Positions 7,748-59,044 of a stretch of DNA of 64,000 nt are shown here, in pieces. Within the stretch, counting starts at the first letter, position 1; each line of letters starts with the position of its first letter. A program made the translations under genes and the position numbers. Source of the stretch: Neptunomonas concharum. GTDB taxonomy: Bacteria; Pseudomonadota; Gammaproteobacteria; Pseudomonadales; Balneatricaceae. The stretch covers positions 682,001 to 746,000 of the forward strand of contig NZ_CP043869.1 of assembly GCF_008630635.1 (NCBI RefSeq). Reading direction: 5' to 3'. The notes beneath the pieces are model-generated. The model searched no databases and had not been told where the DNA came from. It saw nothing but the letters and a program-made list of their open reading frames with translations.

Positions 7748-9080
7748 GGATCTAAAGCGTGCAATGGAGGCACTGCAAGCCCCTCTTAGTTCGCCTCAAC
7801 CTATGTTGCAAGGGCGTATTACCCGTTTGATTGGCCTTACTATTGAAGCAGTTGGTCTGAATGTGGCTATTGGCGATAACTGTCTTATTATGAGGCCCAG
7901 TGCTGGAATTGAGGCTGAAGTGGTTGGCTTCTCGGGGGACCGTATCTATCTGATGCCTCTTCAACCAGTTGATGGCTTAGCACCGGGTGCCAAGGTGATC
8001 GCTTTAAATGCGGATCGGGATGTTCCGGTTGGTTTTGAACTTCTTGGGCGTGTGCTCAATGGAGTTGGCGAGCCATTGGACGGTAAGGGGGCTTTAAAGT
8101 GTGAGCAATCTGTTTCTATGGCGGGAGAGGTGATTAATCCGCTTGAACGTTATCCTATCAACGAAACACTAGATGTTGGAATTAAAGCGATTAATGCGCT
8201 GCTGACTGTAGGTAAAGGCCAGCGTTTGGGCTTATTTGCGGGTAGTGGTGTGGGAAAATCAGTACTGTTGGGGATGATGACTCGAGCGACAGAGGCTGAT
8301 ATCACCGTTGTAGGCCTGATTGGGGAGAGGGGGCGAGAGGTTAAAGAGTTTGTTGAGCATAACCTAGGGCCTGAAGGATTAGCGCGTTCTGTCGTTGTGG
8401 CCTCGCCGGCAGATGACTCTCCATTAATGCGGCTAAGAGCGTCACAATTAACCACTCGAATTGCAGAATACTTTCGTTCTCAGGGTAAAAGTGTGCTCCT
8501 GCTAATGGACTCGCTCACCCGTTATGCACAAGCTCAGCGTGAAATTGCTTTGGCAATAGGGGAGCCTCCCGCAACTAAAGGCTACCCGCCGTCAGTGTTT
8601 GCAAAACTTCCTAAATTGGTTGAACGCGCAGGTAATGATGCAACGGGGCAAGGGTCTATCACGGCTTTTTATACTGTGTTGACGGAAGGTGACGATCAGC
8701 AAGACCCTGTAGCTGATGCAGCGCGTGCGATTTTAGATGGGCACGTAGTATTGTCGCGTCAACTTGCTGAGCAGGGGCATTATCCTGCAATTGATGTTGA
8801 GGCATCAATCAGTCGAGCGATGCCATCTATTGTTACTTCTGAGCATATGGCGTTGGCAATGCGCTTTAAGCAGCTATACTCAAAATATCAGCAAAATGCG
8901 GACTTGATTGCTGTCGGAGCTTATGTGCGTGGTAGTGACCCCGATACCGATTTTGCTATAGAGCGCGTACCAACAATGCGTCAATTCCTAAGACAGGGGC
9001 TAAATGAAGCAATGAATGTCAATGATAGCTTACGTATGATGTCGATATCTCTACAGCCTGCAGAGCCTGTACGGGCATGA
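7737..9080 (+). CDS. fliI: Flagellum-specific export ATPase FliI
   Basis: Hexameric ATPase of the flagellar type III export apparatus, related to F1 beta. The Walker A loop [15 protein letters not shown] and Walker [17 protein letters not shown] are clear, as is the conserved [18 protein letters not shown]. The ATG at 7737 gives 447 residues, the normal length; the frame is open further up to a TTG at 7692 inside fliH, which adds 15 unconserved residues and is unlikely. The end overlaps the fliJ start by 4 bp (ATGA). Confidence 0.96.
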
Positions 9081-9520
9081 AAAAACGCTCCTCTCGGCTT
9101 CAGGTTGTTCTCAATTTGGCTGAGCAGCGCAAAGCACAAGCTGAGCAGTTTTTGGGTGAGCAAGTAAAGCGTGTTGAGACTGATAAAGTACAGCTAGCAC
9201 AGTTGCAGGACTATTTGGCTGAATACCAGCAGGCTTATCGAGAGGCGGTCAATAGAGGGCTTGATATAGGGCAGCTGCAAAATTATCAGGCATTTATGGC
9301 GAAAATTTCTGATGCCATTGAGAAACATCGTAAGTCGATGCAGCACAACCTTGTTCAACTAGAGCAGATAAAGAAATACTGGGCTCAAATGCACGGTAAG
9401 CACCAAGCTGTTGATAACTTGGTTTCAAAAGTGGTTGCGCAAGAGAAACAGGTAGAAGATAAGCAGTTACAAAAATTGCTAGATGAGCGTTCTCAGCTTC
9501 GTCCTTCCGCTTTTATTTAA
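9077..9520 (+). CDS. fliJ: Flagellar export chaperone FliJ
   Basis: Coiled-coil protein of 147 residues that sits in the centre of the FliI ring and activates FlhA, like the gamma subunit of F1. The sequence is nearly all charged, Gln-rich heptads (for example [17 protein letters not shown]), starts with [18 protein letters not shown] as FliJ proteins do, and overlaps fliI by 4 bp. Position between fliI and fliK supports the call. Confidence 0.92.
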
Positions 9521-9573
9521 GATGGCCTTGATTTTGCTTTAACTCCACCATCGATAAGTTCATGGGTGGTATT

Positions 9574-11844
9574 ATGAGTAATTCAGTCGCTCCAAGTCTA
9601 TCACTATTACCAATGTCTGGCGGTGCAGTGTCGCAAAGCTTTAATAGCCAATTGCTAGCGGCTAATACGGCTGTAGTGCCTACAACGCAGGCTTTTGGTG
9701 ACTATTTGTCAGGTGCATACTCTCAAGCACGTTGGGCAGAAAGTAATACAAACCCAGAGCAGGACTCGAGTCGTCAAGATTTGCCGCCGAGCGGAAGTGT
9801 TTTGCCTTCAGCGGCAAGTGAATCATCTTCTGTAAGCTATCAGGAACTGGCAAATAGTGATCAAGCCGTATCAGGAGATGTGGTAGAAAATCTGTCTGGA
9901 AATGGCGTTGATTTAAATAGCTCTAATGGCGAATTGGTGGAAGGTGAGCTTGCCAAGGCAATAAAGCTCGCAATAGAAGAGCAAGATAAGGCTTTGTTGG
10001 GGCCTGGGCTCATAAGGGAGCCTGCCATCGCTAAGAGTATAAATATACAGCCGCTTGTCGAGGAGGGGTTGTTGGCTCAAACGGCTCAAACGGCTCAAAC
10101 GGCTCAAACGGCTCAAACGGCTCAAACGGCTCAAACGGCTCAAACGGCTCAAACGGCTCAAACGGCTCAAACGGCTCAAACGGCTCAAACGGCTCAAACG
10201 GCTCAAACGGCTCAAACGGCTCAAACGGCTCAAACGGCTCAAACGGCTCAAACGGCTCAAACGGCTCAAACGGCTCAAACGGCTCAAACGGCTCAAACGG
10301 CTCAAACGGCTCAAACGGCTCAAACGGCTCAAACGGCTCAAACGGCTCAAACGGCTCAAACGGCTCAAACGGCTCAAACGGCTCAAACGGCTCAAACGGC
10401 TCAAACGGCTCAAACGGCTCAAACGGCTCAAACGGCTCAAACGGCTCAAACGGCTCAAACGGCTCAAACGGCTCAAACGGCTCAAACGGCTCAAACGGCT
10501 CAAACGGCTCAAACGGCTCAAACGGCTCAAACGGCTCAAACGGCTCAAACGGCTCAAACGGCTCAAACGGCTCAAACGGCTCAAACGGCTCAAACGGCTC
10601 AACCGGCTCAACCGGCTCAACCGGCTCAAACGGCTCAAACGGCTCAACCGGCTCAACCGGCTCAACCGGCTCAAACGGCTCAACCGGCTCAACCGGCTCA
10701 ACCGGCTCAAACGGCTCAACCGGCTCAACCGGCTCAAACGGCTCAAACGGCTCAAACGGCTCAAACGGCTCAAACGGCTCAAACGGCTCAACCGGCTCAA
10801 ACGGCTCAACCGGCTCAACCGGCTCAACCGGCTCAAACGGCTCAACCGGCTCAACCGGCTCAACCGGCTCAACCGGCTCAACCGGCTCAACCGGCTCAAA
10901 CGGCTCAACCGGCTCAACCGGCTCAACCGGCTCAACCGGCTCAACCGGCTCAAACGGTTCAAACGGTTCAAACGGCTCAAACGGCTCAAACGGCTCAAAC
11001 GGCTCAACTGGCGCAAAAGGCTCAACCGGCTCAACCGGCTCAACCGGCTCAAACGGCTCAAACGGCTCAAACGGCTCAAGCGGCTCAACCGGCTCAACCG
11101 GCTCAAACAGTGCAGTCGGATAATAAGAAGGTATCGCGTAATAGCTTGTCTGCTGCAGAATCAGCGCAGCGCAGCGCTGACACTAGTATTGTCGGTGTTA
11201 ACTTGAAGTCTGAGGTTGTTGTGAAGAGCGGTGATCAAATCGTAGCTAAGAAACAACTTTCTGGTGTATCTCCGGTACGGGTAAGTGCCGAGAAAATAGA
11301 TTCGCCTATTAATTCAGCACAAGCTGAAAGCGTTACGGAAAAACCAACACAGATTGAGCAGTTCTCTATAGGGGCGCTGCATCAACCTACTTTATATCGC
11401 CCTTCTGCAGGTGTGGTATTGCAAATGCCCCAAGGTATTACACCTAATCATCCTGCGTGGCCTCAAGTGGTGTCTGAGCGTTTGGCTTGGGTTTCAGGTC
11501 AGCAAGTCCAAAGTGCAACGTTACAGCTTGATCCTCCAGAGTTGGGCTCCTTGCAAGTAAAACTCCAGATAAGCAATGAGCAGGTGAGTGTGACTTTTGT
11601 CTCTCCTCATGCCTCTACGCGGGATGCATTAGAGCAAAACCTGCCTCGCCTGCGTGAAATGCTTGCAGAGCAGGGGATGAGTTTGGGTGAATCTTTTGTA
11701 AATGACCAATCTTCTGGTGGTGGCAAGGGTGAAAGAGACGAATCTTCAGGGCGTATGGGCTATGACCTTTCGGCTGGAGAAGTGGAGACTTCGTCTGAGG
11801 TTGTTAGTCGCGGGAATGTATCTTTAGTGGATTATTACGCTTAA
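9574..11844 (+). CDS. fliK: Flagellar hook-length control protein FliK with giant repeat linker
   Basis: Exported ruler that measures the hook and triggers FlhB to switch export specificity. The C-terminal Flg_hook domain is intact (about residues 625-715: QSATLQLDPPELGSLQVKLQ, then LRGxx-like helix LPRLREMLAEQGMSLGE). The N-terminal 165 residues are Ser/Asn-rich. Between them lie 115 tandem Ala-Gln-Thr/Pro triplets, so the protein is 756 residues against roughly 400 in enteric bacteria. ATG 9574 has GGTGG 5 bp upstream and is preferred to the in-frame ATG at 9562. It follows fliJ in the standard order. Confidence 0.93.
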   Translation: MSNSVAPSLSLLPMSGGAVSQSFNSQLLAANTAVVPTTQAFGDYLSGAYSQARWAESNTNPEQDSSRQDLPPSGSVLPSAASESSSVSYQELANSDQAVSGDVVENLSGNGVDLNSSNGELVEGELAKAIKLAIEEQDKALLGPGLIREPAIAKSINIQPLVEEGLLAQTAQTAQTAQTAQTAQTAQTAQTAQTAQTAQTAQTAQTAQTAQTAQTAQTAQTAQTAQTAQTAQTAQTAQTAQTAQTAQTAQTAQTAQTAQTAQTAQTAQTAQTAQTAQTAQTAQTAQTAQTAQTAQTAQTAQTAQTAQTAQTAQTAQTAQTAQTAQTAQTAQTAQTAQTAQTAQPAQPAQPAQTAQTAQPAQPAQPAQTAQPAQPAQPAQTAQPAQPAQTAQTAQTAQTAQTAQTAQPAQTAQPAQPAQPAQTAQPAQPAQPAQPAQPAQPAQTAQPAQPAQPAQPAQPAQTVQTVQTAQTAQTAQTAQLAQKAQPAQPAQPAQTAQTAQTAQAAQPAQPAQTVQSDNKKVSRNSLSAAESAQRSADTSIVGVNLKSEVVVKSGDQIVAKKQLSGVSPVRVSAEKIDSPINSAQAESVTEKPTQIEQFSIGALHQPTLYRPSAGVVLQMPQGITPNHPAWPQVVSERLAWVSGQQVQSATLQLDPPELGSLQVKLQISNEQVSVTFVSPHASTRDALEQNLPRLREMLAEQGMSLGESFVNDQSSGGGKGERDESSGRMGYDLSAGEVETSSEVVSRGNVSLVDYYA
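10075..11109 (+). repeat. 115-copy 9-bp tandem repeat inside fliK
   Basis: Unit GCTCAAACG encodes Ala-Gln-Thr. From 10075 to 10596 there are 58 apparently identical units; from 10597 to 11109 another 57 units mix ACG (Thr) with CCG (Pro) and a few GTT, CTG, GCG and AAG changes. The period holds exactly, (11109-10075+1)/9 = 115, with no frame-breaking indel. The array also leaves spurious open frames on both strands. Confidence 0.97.
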
Positions 11845-11924: not shown

Positions 11925-12437
11925 ATGGCTGAGGCAGAATCGGTAGCAGAGGCCGCTGAAGGCGGAAAATCAAAGAAAAAACTTATCATCTTTATTGTTA
12001 TAGGGGCATTGCTGATCGCTGCGCTGGGTGCAGGAGCTGCTTTTTTTCTTCTAGGTGGTCAATCAGATGAGACGGTGGCTCCCGCAGAGCCGGTTAGAAA
12101 AGAAGCCATCTATTCTAAAGTCAGGACGTTGGAGGGAAAACCTTCATTTGTTGCAACCTTGCAGTCAAGTGATGGTAAAAGGCACTACCTACAAACGTTT
12201 GTAGAGGCAAAAAGCAGAGATCAGGATGTGGTCGACGCATTGACATTGCATATGCCGTTAATTGTTGCGCGAATGAATAATTTGTTTGCGAAGCAGTCTT
12301 TTGAAGAGCTGCAAACGATTGAAGGCAAAGAACGCCTTCGTCAAGCCTCGACCGAGTTAGTGCAAGGTATTCTTCAAGAAAAAATTGGTAAACCGGGTGT
12401 TGAAATGATCCTGTTTACTAACTTTGTTATGCAGTAG
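11925..12437 (+). CDS. fliL: Flagellar basal body-associated protein FliL
   Basis: Single-pass inner-membrane protein that forms a ring around the stator and aids torque under load. 170 residues: short Ala/Glu-rich cytoplasmic head, membrane helix at about 20-43 (LIIFIVIGALLIAALGAGAA) and a periplasmic domain ending in the typical ILFTNFVMQ. Start ATG is preceded by AGGAGAG. It is followed by fliM after 20 bp, as in most flagellar clusters. Confidence 0.94.
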   Translation: MAEAESVAEAAEGGKSKKKLIIFIVIGALLIAALGAGAAFFLLGGQSDETVAPAEPVRKEAIYSKVRTLEGKPSFVATLQSSDGKRHYLQTFVEAKSRDQDVVDALTLHMPLIVARMNNLFAKQSFEELQTIEGKERLRQASTELVQGILQEKIGKPGVEMILFTNFVMQ

Positions 12438-27881: not shown

Positions 27882-28607
<726 letters not shown>

Positions 28608-29068: not shown

Positions 29069-29347
29069 TTACTGGCTTTTTGGATTCTTCAAATTGTAAG
29101 CAAAGGCAATAACTTCGGCGATCGCTCTATATAATTCTTCGGGTATTTCATCACCCAATTCAAGTCTGATTAAGACCTCTAATAGCTCAGGACTTTGGTG
29201 AACCAGCACGTCATTCTCTTGCGCTAGTTGTAATATTTGTTTGGCAATATCCCCATGGCCTTTAGCGACAAGGGTAGGGGCGCTAGATTTGTTAGCGTCA
29301 TACTTTAAGGCAACGGCTGATTCTGAGCTGTTTTCTGCTTTCTTCAT
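29069..29347 (-). CDS. fhlB: FhlB/FlhX: stand-alone FlhB C-terminal domain
   Basis: 92 residues that align with the part of FlhB lying just after the NPTH cleavage site: ALKYDANKSSAPTLVAKGHG here against ALKYMSGSREAPVVVAKGVD in FlhB (about residues 276-295). There is no NPTH, no membrane part. Homologues (B. subtilis YlqH, FlhX) can partly replace the cleaved FlhB fragment. The start overlaps the upstream fliK-like stop by 4 bp (ATGA), so the two are translationally coupled. Minus strand, opposite to the rest of the flagellar run. Confidence 0.88.
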   Translation of the reverse strand: MKKAENSSESAVALKYDANKSSAPTLVAKGHGDIAKQILQLAQENDVLVHQSPELLEVLIRLELGDEIPEELYRAIAEVIAFAYNLKNPKSQ

Positions 29348-31536
29348 GTTTTTATATCTATTAGCTGTTTTGATAGGGTCTGTTTATCGGCGTTTGATTT
29401 TCCTGTCCGACAGGCTAGCAAAGGGTTACTAAAGCCTGATTTTTCTAATTGGGTTTTGAAAGAGTCGAGTTGTTGGCGAACATGTGATGCTGTACTGGCT
29501 TCTTCACAAATAAAAGCGGTTGTTAGCGTTTGGTGTTGCTGATTCAATGATATATCGACATCAATAGCGCCTGCTTTTTTTAAATCAAAATGTAATTGTA
29601 CATTCCAGATGGTTTCGTAGTGTCCCGCTGAATTTTTGCGTTGTGATTGGCCAATGCATAACTCTACATTTTCTAACTGACGTTCGTGTTTTATAGGGAG
29701 GTCAAGTTGGAAAATTCTATCTATATTTTCGCTCCTTTCTTGGCGAGGTTGAGCCGCTTGAAGTTGCTGTGAAGTGACTCGGGCTAATATCTTATCTACA
29801 ACATGTAAAGTTGATTCACGTTGCAATGGAGGAAGTGAGTCCGCATTTTGCTTCAGCTTGCCAAGAAACTGTTTTAAATCTTGATGGACTGGCTGCTTCT
29901 TCGCTAAACGGCTTTCTGTAAAAAGCCCGCCGAATTGCACATTCTGTTTTACTTGCTCCCCTGACTCTTTAGCCCCAGGGCGTACACCAAAAAGCTGTAA
30001 AATAGACTGAATCAGCTTGTCGGTCTGCGGACTAGGATTTTGTGCAGAGAGTTGCAATAGATTCGTGAGTTGTTGGAGGTTATCGGCCATAGGTTGCTGT
30101 ATGGGCAAGTTTTCTCGAAGAGTCGTTTGAACAAGGTCTTGCTGGGTACTCGTAAGAACCGGAATGTTCGCCTTAATTAAAGGAGCGGGGGTGTTTGTGG
30201 TAGGCAGGGACCAACGAATAAATATCTGTTCGGCGGTTCTTCCTACTTGTACTTCTTTAAGAGGCGGGAGGTTGGCTGGAGCCTTAAAACTGACGGTTTC
30301 ACCCTTGATATTGAGTTGTAAATCTCCAGTTTTTCCGCCTGTGCTATAGGGCTGCGTTTGTGGAAAATGTTTTGGTAATACGGGCTGTTCAAGTGATTGT
30401 GTTGTAACTTGTCTTGACACTATATGCGCAGATGATGTCTGAACAGGTGCCGGTTTTGCTTGTACAGAGGGTGTTGTCTGAGCAGGCGCCGGTGCTGCTT
30501 GTGCAGAGGATGATATCTGAGCAGGTGTTGGTGTTGCTTGTGCAGAGGATGATGCCTGAACAGGTGTTGGTGTTGCTTGTGAAGAGGGTGTTGTCTGAGT
30601 AGGTGTTGCTTGTGCAGATGGTGTTGTCTGAGCAGGTGCTGGTGTTGCTTGTGCAGATGATGTTGTCTGAGCAGGCGCTGGTGTTGCTTGTGCGGGTGGT
30701 GTTGTCTGAGAAGGCGCCGGTGCTGCTTGTGCAGAGGATGATGTCTGAGCAGATGTTGGTGTTGCTTGTGAAGAGGGTGTTGTCTGAGCAGGCGCTGGTG
30801 TTGCTTGTGCAGATGGTGATGTTTGAGCAGGTGCTGGTGTTGCTTGTGCGGGTGGTGTTGTCTGAGAAGGCGCCGGTGCTGCTTGTGCAGAAGGTGATGT
30901 CTGAACAGGCGTAGGTGCTGCTTGTGCAGGTGGTGGTGTCTGAGCAGGCACTGGAGTTGCTTGCGCAGAGGGTGTTGCCTGAGCAGACGCTGGTGTTGCT
31001 TGTGAAGAGGGTGTTGCCTGAGCAGGTGCTGGTGTTACTTGAGCTGGTGGTGTTGTTTGTATAGAAATTGGAGGTGAGTTTTGAGTAATCACCAGTGCTG
31101 TTTGCAGCTGCCCTCTGGGAATAATTTGTTCCAAGCGATTAATCTCTGCTAGCGAGTCGTTACGAGGTACAACCGGAGCCTGAAAAGTCCTCGCAGGAAT
31201 GGCAGGAGCGCCTGAAGAAGGTGCTTGAGTTGTCTTACTGCTGTTTTGTGAGGGTGCTTGTCCGGCTTGGTTCAAAAAAATACTGATGCGTCCCTCGATA
31301 TTCCTTGAGAGAGTAACTTGGGTTCCTGTCGCTAAAGGCTGCGGAGTTTTTAGTTCCAATAAGGTGCTATTAGCTTCTAAGCGAACTCTAAATATTTTAG
31401 GGTCGAGTTGATCTTGCGCGACCTGCTTTACCGTGGCTTGAATCGTTGTTCCTGAAGGCAACGGAACGTCTTTGCCAGCACGTGTGGCACCGCTACTATC
31501 GACTAAAGTAATGGATTGCGCGTTTATTGGAATCAT
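29344..31536 (-). CDS. Second FliK-like hook-length control protein
   Basis: From ATG at 31536 the product is 730 residues; the frame continues up to 31656, but those 40 residues run into the ccmA promoter region and look non-coding. N-terminal domain (about 1-95, DKIFRVRLEANSTLLELK-type beta sequence), a Pro/Thr/Ala/Gln-rich linker of 16 repeats of 13 residues (about 161-366), then a C-terminal region with a Flg_hook-like domain (about 610-725, IWNVQLHFDLKKAGAIDVDI). It resembles FliK in plan and is coupled to fhlB, so a second substrate-switch pair is likely. Similar FliK-like genes sit before ccmA in Pseudomonas. Confidence 0.78.
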   Translation of the reverse strand: MIPINAQSITLVDSSGATRAGKDVPLPSGTTIQATVKQVAQDQLDPKIFRVRLEANSTLLELKTPQPLATGTQVTLSRNIEGRISIFLNQAGQAPSQNSSKTTQAPSSGAPAIPARTFQAPVVPRNDSLAEINRLEQIIPRGQLQTALVITQNSPPISIQTTPPAQVTPAPAQATPSSQATPASAQATPSAQATPVPAQTPPPAQAAPTPVQTSPSAQAAPAPSQTTPPAQATPAPAQTSPSAQATPAPAQTTPSSQATPTSAQTSSSAQAAPAPSQTTPPAQATPAPAQTTSSAQATPAPAQTTPSAQATPTQTTPSSQATPTPVQASSSAQATPTPAQISSSAQAAPAPAQTTPSVQAKPAPVQTSSAHIVSRQVTTQSLEQPVLPKHFPQTQPYSTGGKTGDLQLNIKGETVSFKAPANLPPLKEVQVGRTAEQIFIRWSLPTTNTPAPLIKANIPVLTSTQQDLVQTTLRENLPIQQPMADNLQQLTNLLQLSAQNPSPQTDKLIQSILQLFGVRPGAKESGEQVKQNVQFGGLFTESRLAKKQPVHQDLKQFLGKLKQNADSLPPLQRESTLHVVDKILARVTSQQLQAAQPRQERSENIDRIFQLDLPIKHERQLENVELCIGQSQRKNSAGHYETIWNVQLHFDLKKAGAIDVDISLNQQHQTLTTAFICEEASTASHVRQQLDSFKTQLEKSGFSNPLLACRTGKSNADKQTLSKQLIDIKT
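30439..31056 (-). repeat. Sixteen 39-bp imperfect repeats in the second FliK-like gene
   Basis: Reading the minus strand, the unit encodes TTPSAQATPAPAQ with variants; 15 units are 13 residues and one (TTPSAQATPTQ) is 11. All lengths are multiples of three, so frame is kept. Units differ by a few substitutions each, suggesting an older array than the one in fliK. Confidence 0.93.
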
Positions 31537-31596
31537 AGTCACATTTTTTACATGAGTTCTGATCAAGAGCAATGCCCATGAGCAGGTGAATTTGTA

Positions 31597-31602
31597 TATA
31601 AT
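31597..31602 (+). promoter_or_regulatory. Possible -10 box for ccmA
   Basis: A perfect TATAAT lies about 80 bp ahead of the ccmA start in the 143-bp divergent gap. The -35 region 16-18 bp upstream is poor (TGCCCA at best), so this is a weak call. Confidence 0.3.
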
Positions 31603-31679
31603 GCTCTGCTTATAGATCGGCCGAAGCAAGACAAAATGAAGCTTCTCTTCCGACATCGATATTATCCTGAGGAAAATGT

Positions 31680-58229: not shown

Positions 58230-58345
58230 TCTGGGTTAGACTTTTCGTCAGTTGCTGTCTATACTGCGTTCAGTTTGCTTTAATATCGAATGGGCATAAT
58301 GCATGGAAACGCATATGTTATTGATTTTAATTGAGAGGTTTTATA

Positions 58346-59044
58346 ATGCATAAGTTGGCGACAGCAGTGTCATTGGCGATGGGGGTTACCCTGTCTGCAG
58401 GCGCTTTAGCGTATGATTTGACGATTAATGGTGTTACAAAAACTGGGCTAACTGATGTTAAGATAAGCTCTACTGCAACGGGTGTAGTAGTTACTACAAC
58501 TCCTTCTTTTACTGTAACTATTGACGGTTCAAACCCAGATCCAACCCCGGACCCAGATCCAACCCCGGACCCAGATCCAACCCCGGACCCAGATCCAACC
58601 CCGGACCCAGACCCAACCCCTAATCCAACTTGTGGTGCGGTTCCAGATACAATTGATGTTACAGATGGTATCAATTGGGCAAAACCTGGTACGCAGACGC
58701 GTATAGCTTTGGCTAGAAAAATTAAGTCTATGCCGTTCACTGCAACTACAAATACAGCATATCTTGGACAGATTTCAGTTGCTTCAACTACGGGTAACTC
58801 TGGTGTGAAGCGCCAAGTATGGGTTTCCGAATGCCCAGGTACGGCTTATACAGCAGCGAATACGGCTTGCGCAAAAACCGGTACAAGCTCAACGGTTATC
58901 TACTTTGAGCAGGGTACAAAATACACAGGTAGTTTCTGTCAGTTGACACCTAATAAAGAATACTATATCAACGTTCAGAATATGGACTGTACAGCTTCAA
59001 CTTGTGATGTTTACCGTAATATTTACACAAACGGTAGACCATAA
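58346..59044 (+). CDS. Exported protein with Pro-Asp repeat linker, unknown function
   Basis: 232 residues from ATG 58346 (GAGAGG 7 bp upstream). Signal peptide about 20 residues, ending LSAGALA. A small N-terminal domain (about 21-60), a Pro-Asp-Pro-Thr linker (about 63-95), and a C-terminal beta domain with paired cysteines (WVSECPGTAY, NTACAKTG, SFCQLTPNKEYYINVQ). The C-domain looks like a small secreted jelly-roll type module, but I do not recognise a named family. A terminator closes it. Transported by Sec; possible outer-membrane passage by the nearby Gsp system is inference. Confidence 0.72.
   Translation: MHKLATAVSLAMGVTLSAGALAYDLTINGVTKTGLTDVKISSTATGVVVTTTPSFTVTIDGSNPDPTPDPDPTPDPDPTPDPDPTPDPDPTPNPTCGAVPDTIDVTDGINWAKPGTQTRIALARKIKSMPFTATTNTAYLGQISVASTTGNSGVKRQVWVSECPGTAYTAANTACAKTGTSSTVIYFEQGTKYTGSFCQLTPNKEYYINVQNMDCTASTCDVYRNIYTNGRP
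58535..58624 (+). repeat. Five 18-bp repeats encoding PDPTPD
   Basis: Unit CCAGATCCAACCCCGGAC; units 1-4 are identical and unit 5 has small changes (GAC, CCT, AAT). Encodes an extended Pro-Asp-Pro-Thr linker between two domains. Confidence 0.95.

Follow-up and report, generated by a model that had tools for sequence, protein, structure and literature searches.

fliK locus and sequence features

The window (the whole stretch of 64 000 nucleotides of Neptunomonas concharum DNA that was analysed) belongs to a genome of 3.56 Mb assembled as one contig and contains a fliK gene with an in-frame array of nine-base units in its middle (table 1). The protein matched PF02120 (Flg_hook) over residues 639–720 with 93 bits (cut-off 29.8) and PDB 2RRL with an E-value of 2.7e-15; 2RRL is the NMR structure of the FliK C-terminal core (PMC6972891). 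Within the fli operon the gene is flanked by fliJ and fliL, both assigned by Pfam, and by domain and gene order it is the true fliK of a Neptunomonas, as the first-pass annotation had named it. Further open reading frames of the window were named fliF, fliG, fliH, fliI, fliM, fliN, fliO and fliP, and we take the region to be a full fli operon. The frame opens with an ATG at 9562; the true start may instead be another in-frame ATG, at 9574. The full-length NCBI FliK equivalog PRK10118 was matched below its cut-off (56.2 versus 396 bits) and over residues 492–721 only; this model was presumably built on the short enterobacterial form of FliK, and the miss probably concerns the middle and N-terminal part of the protein. 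Residues 1–171 are expected to carry the export signal. Motifs of the type F-x-x-x-hydrophobic, which we take to be the form of the gate recognition motif in the FliK N-terminal export signal, were found at residues 27 and 45 and, as a loose motif without a chance rate, within the first 110 residues of all eight FliKs of the genus.

Table 1. Coordinates of fliK, its parts and its neighbours in the window.
Feature	Position	Strand	Basis
fliJ, neighbour	9077..9520	+	PF02050
fliK, 760 aa	9562..11844	+	ORF call; PF02120, 93 bits
fliK N-terminal part, residues 1–171, without repeats	9562..10074	+	ORF and unit analysis
Array, 115 nine-base units, residues 172–516	10075..11109	+	TRF and codon-phase unit analysis
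Homogeneous block, 58 identical GCTCAAACG units	10075..10596	+	unit analysis
Mixed block, 57 units, Ala-Gln-Thr and Ala-Gln-Pro interleaved, rare V, L, K and A variants	10597..11109	+	unit analysis
Linker, non-repetitive, between array and C-terminal domain	11110..11475	+	ORF and Pfam
Flg_hook (FliK C-terminal switch) domain, residues 639–720	11476..11721	+	PF02120; PDB 2RRL
fliL, neighbour	11925..12437	+	PF03748

TRF placed the array at 10074–11108 with period 9, 115.0 copies, 97% matches, 0% indels and a score of 1804; no score above 89 was reached in 200 codon shuffles of the gene. Across 464 kb of the genome, made up of the window and 20 stretches of 20 kb, the next best scores were 724 for the window and 368 elsewhere. 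Read in codon phase, the units were 79 Ala-Gln-Thr, 31 Ala-Gln-Pro, 2 Val-Gln-Thr and one each of AQL, AQK and AQA, and 78 of them had the sequence GCTCAAACG, of which 58 form one unbroken run. TRF and codon phase thus bore out the annotation in its coordinates (10075–11109), in its 115 in-frame Ala-Gln-Thr/Pro units and in its 58 units identical at DNA level, and its statement that copy changes keep the frame agrees with the nine-base unit. On/off switching by frame change was looked for in the array and not found, the unit being nine bases and the indels 0%. Removing one or two bases at 10600 in silico ended the protein at residue 547 or 519, short of the domain at 639.

A mobile origin of the array was considered and rejected: in a DNA search a 181-base piece of it matched the own genome at the fliK array only and had no match in 59 other genomes of the family, the search being one that misses the arrays of two relatives (G001 and G006, in which the codons differ), did not include G002, G003 and G007 and is uninformative on Ala-Gln-Thr arrays in other proteins.

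Array in the genus Neptunomonas

The fliK loci of seven relatives were compared with that of the own genome (eight genomes, one per species). The array was present in five of the eight, with 115.0 copies by TRF in the own genome and 33.9, 53.8, 44.0 and 67.7 copies in the relatives, in which it consists of nine-base units encoding the same Ala-Gln-Thr peptide at the same place in FliK. Copy number is several-fold different between species. In G002 an assembly gap of 451 Ns lies exactly at the place of the array and is bordered by array units on both sides. The array was absent from G004 and G005, whose FliKs have 613 and 753 amino acids, which shows that a long ruler does not need an array. 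These lengths argue against a special purpose of the array, as does the equally variable repeat of another linker of the genus (see below). In a fliM tree with midpoint root the two array-less genomes were placed outside the six others (support 90/91), which fits a single origin of the array, without being proof of it.

That the array or its count is an error of assembly is very improbable. Assemblies do fail at this place, as in G002, but arrays of the same unit stand at the same place in five of eight genomes, two of them single contigs. Because four other genomes of the genus carry same-peptide arrays there, an assembly error is an unlikely source of the array as such. Its exact count still depends on the type of reads.

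Turnover of the unit and selection

Mean identity between units was 0.84–0.94 within genomes and 0.59–0.86 between genomes, values based on AQ-cluster units, the counts of which are lower than those of TRF in two genomes (28 versus 33.9 in G001 and 30 versus 53.8 in G003) because phase breaks and non-AQ units interrupt these arrays. The own-genome value was the highest of its row in four of five cases, the exception being G006 (0.843 within the genome versus 0.864 with G007). Gln was encoded by CAA in 115 of 115 units of the own array and by CAG in 68 of 68 units of the array of G007. The arrays have for the most part been re-homogenised species by species, a sign that whole units were gained and lost repeatedly. 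The longest run of identical units was 58 in the own genome versus 3–7 in the other four, which suggests a recent expansion in the own strain.

The expansion is one of two points in favour of a contingency locus, in which copy number would vary between cells of one culture and the variation itself would be selected as a means of tuning hook length: the run of identical units extends over 522 bases, and the unit keeps the frame. Relatives whose arrays are more interrupted nevertheless persist, and the change per unit would be small (0.6 nm by the figure from Salmonella, see below), and we consider such a locus improbable; tuning of hook length between cells or strains, as put forward in the annotation, is a possibility.

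The commonest units of the arrays (GCTCAAACG, GCTCAGACC, GCTCAGACA and GCACAGACA) differ at synonymous sites only, so that Ala-Gln-Thr has been kept while the DNA was replaced. Between the species consensus units at least four synonymous changes were counted by hand, for which the chance is about 0.005 without constraint in a test chosen post hoc. Among the variants inside the arrays 16 were synonymous and 27 were not, which is no significant excess of synonymous variants (expected synonymous share 0.27, p = 0.17), and purifying selection inside the arrays was rejected on this count. With synonymous changes between consensus units but no significant synonymous excess within arrays, the case for selection on the unit is mixed.

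Repeats in FliK of the order

In the sampled list of the order a Flg_hook/FliK match was found in 217 of 293 genomes. Repeats were analysed in FliK of 60 further genomes, comprising 10 of the same family, 30 picked as long and 20 not picked by length (three of the latter added to fill one genus); the counts include two short FliKs, L086 (127 aa) and L081 (246 aa), and leave out the family genome G138 and eight minus-strand loci of a second genus (g95). A TRF score of at least 100 was obtained for 13 of 60 FliKs versus 0 of 60 flank sets, all 13 being among the 30 long FliKs, for which 13/30 is a biased rate as the set was picked by length. At a score of at least 50 the counts were 19 of 60 versus 5 of 60, and repeats covered 3360 of 104 754 bases in fliK versus 186 of 99 380 bases in the flanks. 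The period was divisible by three in 34 of 36 TRF rows of fliK (rows overlap). The units were diverse and unrelated to Ala-Gln-Thr (15, 51, 63, 123 and 159 bases and others). A FliK middle more tolerant than the neighbouring sequences would give the same contrast between FliK and flanks.

Two related species of genus g95 (L104 and L115) hold 19.1 and 4.3 copies of a 15-base unit in FliK. Alignment of these two FliKs (689 and 613 amino acids) gave 466 identical residues of 609 aligned, and the main difference was one gap of 75 residues, in which a five-residue unit is repeated exactly 15 times.

Other repeat-bearing proteins

A CheW-domain protein is encoded at 27882–28607 (+) of the window (19.6 bits versus a Pfam cut-off of 23.5) and contains an array of 20 perfect GAGCCA (Glu-Pro) units at 28058–28179; its gene adjoins a ParA-like gene, and we take the protein to be ParP-like. 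In the relatives G001–G005 and G007 the Glu-Pro copies were 123, 11, 48, 13, 19 and 16, the count of 11 in G002 being unsure with 10 Ns in the stretch, and nearly all units were GAGCCA (one GAGCCT in G001). The array was not seen in the stretch fetched for G006, which, judged by the layout, most likely ends inside the CheW-domain gene.

All eight genomes of the genus have two Flg_hook matches each. The second Flg_hook protein of the own genome is encoded at 29344–31656 (−) of the window (30 bits, 770 aa) and repeats a 39-base unit 16 times in mid-protein; that of G004 has perfect arrays of 6, 6 and 9 bases instead. It adjoins a gene at 29069–29347 (−) for a protein of 92 amino acids that corresponds to the FlhB C-terminal part only (PF01312; TIGR00789 below cut-off), and the two are a possible small ruler-switch pair. 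Outside the window, 30.7 copies of a 6-base Pro-Ala unit were found at C1 378028–378211 (L123 18028–18211) in a protein of 524 amino acids, which we take to resemble DamX with a SPOR domain. An 18-base unit (98% matches, Asp-Pro-Thr-Pro type) is repeated 4.9 times at 58533–58620 of the window, in an open reading frame (58331–59044) for a short secreted-looking protein.

The array of FliK might have arisen by neutral slippage, the middle of the protein tolerating any soluble unstructured sequence, array length drifting like that of other linkers of the genus, and any change of hook length being incidental or too slight to have an effect. We regard this as possible, at a rather low probability, and as a serious rival, because other linkers of the genus also carry variable repeats; FliK may be one of several such repeat-bearing linkers. 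The Glu-Pro array of the CheW-domain protein is equally variable across the genus, the SPOR/DamX-like protein and the second Flg_hook protein carry repeats of their own, and non-synonymous variants in the FliK arrays are not depleted, but two findings speak against drift: consensus units that differ only synonymously between species, and strong repeats in 13 of 60 FliKs of the order and in none of the 60 neighbouring stretches, a pattern that a tolerant FliK would also fit.

FliK length and hook length

Stop-to-stop lengths of the FliK frame in the order (150 values, some clipped by contig ends) had a median of 483, and the own frame with 770 was among the five of 150 at 770 or more. For the five array-bearing FliKs (totals 568–760 aa) array length correlated with total length (r = 0.92, slope 0.73, n = 5); as the array is part of the total, this mainly shows that the other parts do not fully compensate. 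Length compensation, by which the rest would shrink as the array grows, was rejected since the total rises with the array at this slope.

The premise of the annotation that FliK length sets hook length in other bacteria holds for Salmonella (PMC6126814). There, FliK variants of 363–785 residues retained tight control and gave hooks of 42–135 nm, corresponding to 0.2 nm per inserted residue, and soft-agar motility was poorer with FliK of at least 520 or at most 363 residues (PMC6126814). By extrapolation of the Salmonella figure, one unit of the array would correspond to about 0.6 nm and the whole array to about 69 nm, and the five array-bearing FliKs would span about 38 nm. Judged by this motility, very long rulers would not obviously be useful, although Salmonella is peritrichous.

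In Salmonella FliK the ruler is assigned to residues 1–207 and the linker to residues 208–267; linker deletions gave shorter hooks with looser control, and deletion of residues 206–265 gave much longer hooks (PMC6972891). The Salmonella linker is therefore not a pure spacer, because deletions loosen control and a large one lengthens hooks much. The hook protein FlgE of the own genome (C1 654730–655935) has a stop-to-stop frame of 686 amino acids with two FlgE_D2 pieces; in the constructs of PMC8983047 the Salmonella hook protein is given with residues up to 403 and is thus shorter than this frame.

Proposed mechanism and significance

The array of FliK follows the N-terminal part and precedes the switch domain, a position corresponding to the ruler and linker region of Salmonella FliK. 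We regard it, with moderate confidence, as a natural length-adjustable spacer in the ruler, through which FliK length evolves in small in-frame steps. Copies would be gained or lost by replication slippage or unequal recombination with three residues per step, and slips of one or two bases would truncate FliK ahead of the C-terminal domain and be removed. On the model taken from Salmonella, FliK would pass through the hook as it grows, and the length of FliK would decide when its C-terminal domain can switch the export gate. Hook length would then be predicted to follow copy number, and the reading of the array as an adjustable spacer implies about 0.6 nm of hook for each unit, a value carried over from Salmonella.

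A wider claim is doubtful and is put forward tentatively: that the flagellar rulers of Neptunomonas and other genera of the order evolve mainly as tandem repeats in the measuring segment expand and contract. Hook length would then be quantitatively evolvable in steps of less than 1 nm, and in the own strain it might differ between sister cells.

One genus offers a natural graded series of FliKs, formed mostly by gain and loss of three-residue units. FliK rulers have reportedly been lengthened by hand earlier, which is said to have shown that they measure. If the hooks follow, the series would provide a natural test of the ruler model, a value in nm per residue for a defined sequence (Ala-Gln-Thr versus the helix-breaking Ala-Gln-Pro) and a test of whether hook length is under selection.

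Comparison with known systems

A search by title and abstract opening, with subscription journals mostly outside its scope, found no report of natural repeat variation in FliK. Variation of repeat number in a type III ruler is already published for YscP, and for FliK engineered variants only were found. Like Salmonella FliK, which has 405 amino acids (PMC6972891), the protein described here has a C-terminal Flg_hook domain, the same operon position, and an N-terminal part followed by a middle segment. Unlike it, the protein has 760 amino acids, 345 of them in one tandem array, and natural change of copy number stands in place of engineered insertions.

In Yersinia, YscP shows natural variation of repeat number between strains with motifs of 14, 25 and 46 amino acids, and needle length is linear in YscP size (PMC3469391). 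The FliK of Neptunomonas resembles YscP in that ruler length varies naturally through repeat number, as was found between relatives. It differs in that the structure concerned is a hook and not a needle, in that more than 100 three-residue units stand in place of the few long repeats of YscP, and in that the variation was seen between species only, that of YscP being between strains.

Intragenic VNTRs and in-frame minisatellites occur in bacteria. The FliK array is like these in being in frame, largely homogenised within a genome and variable between genomes; unlike other bacterial VNTRs, it lies in a protein that measures length, so that length itself should be the phenotype.
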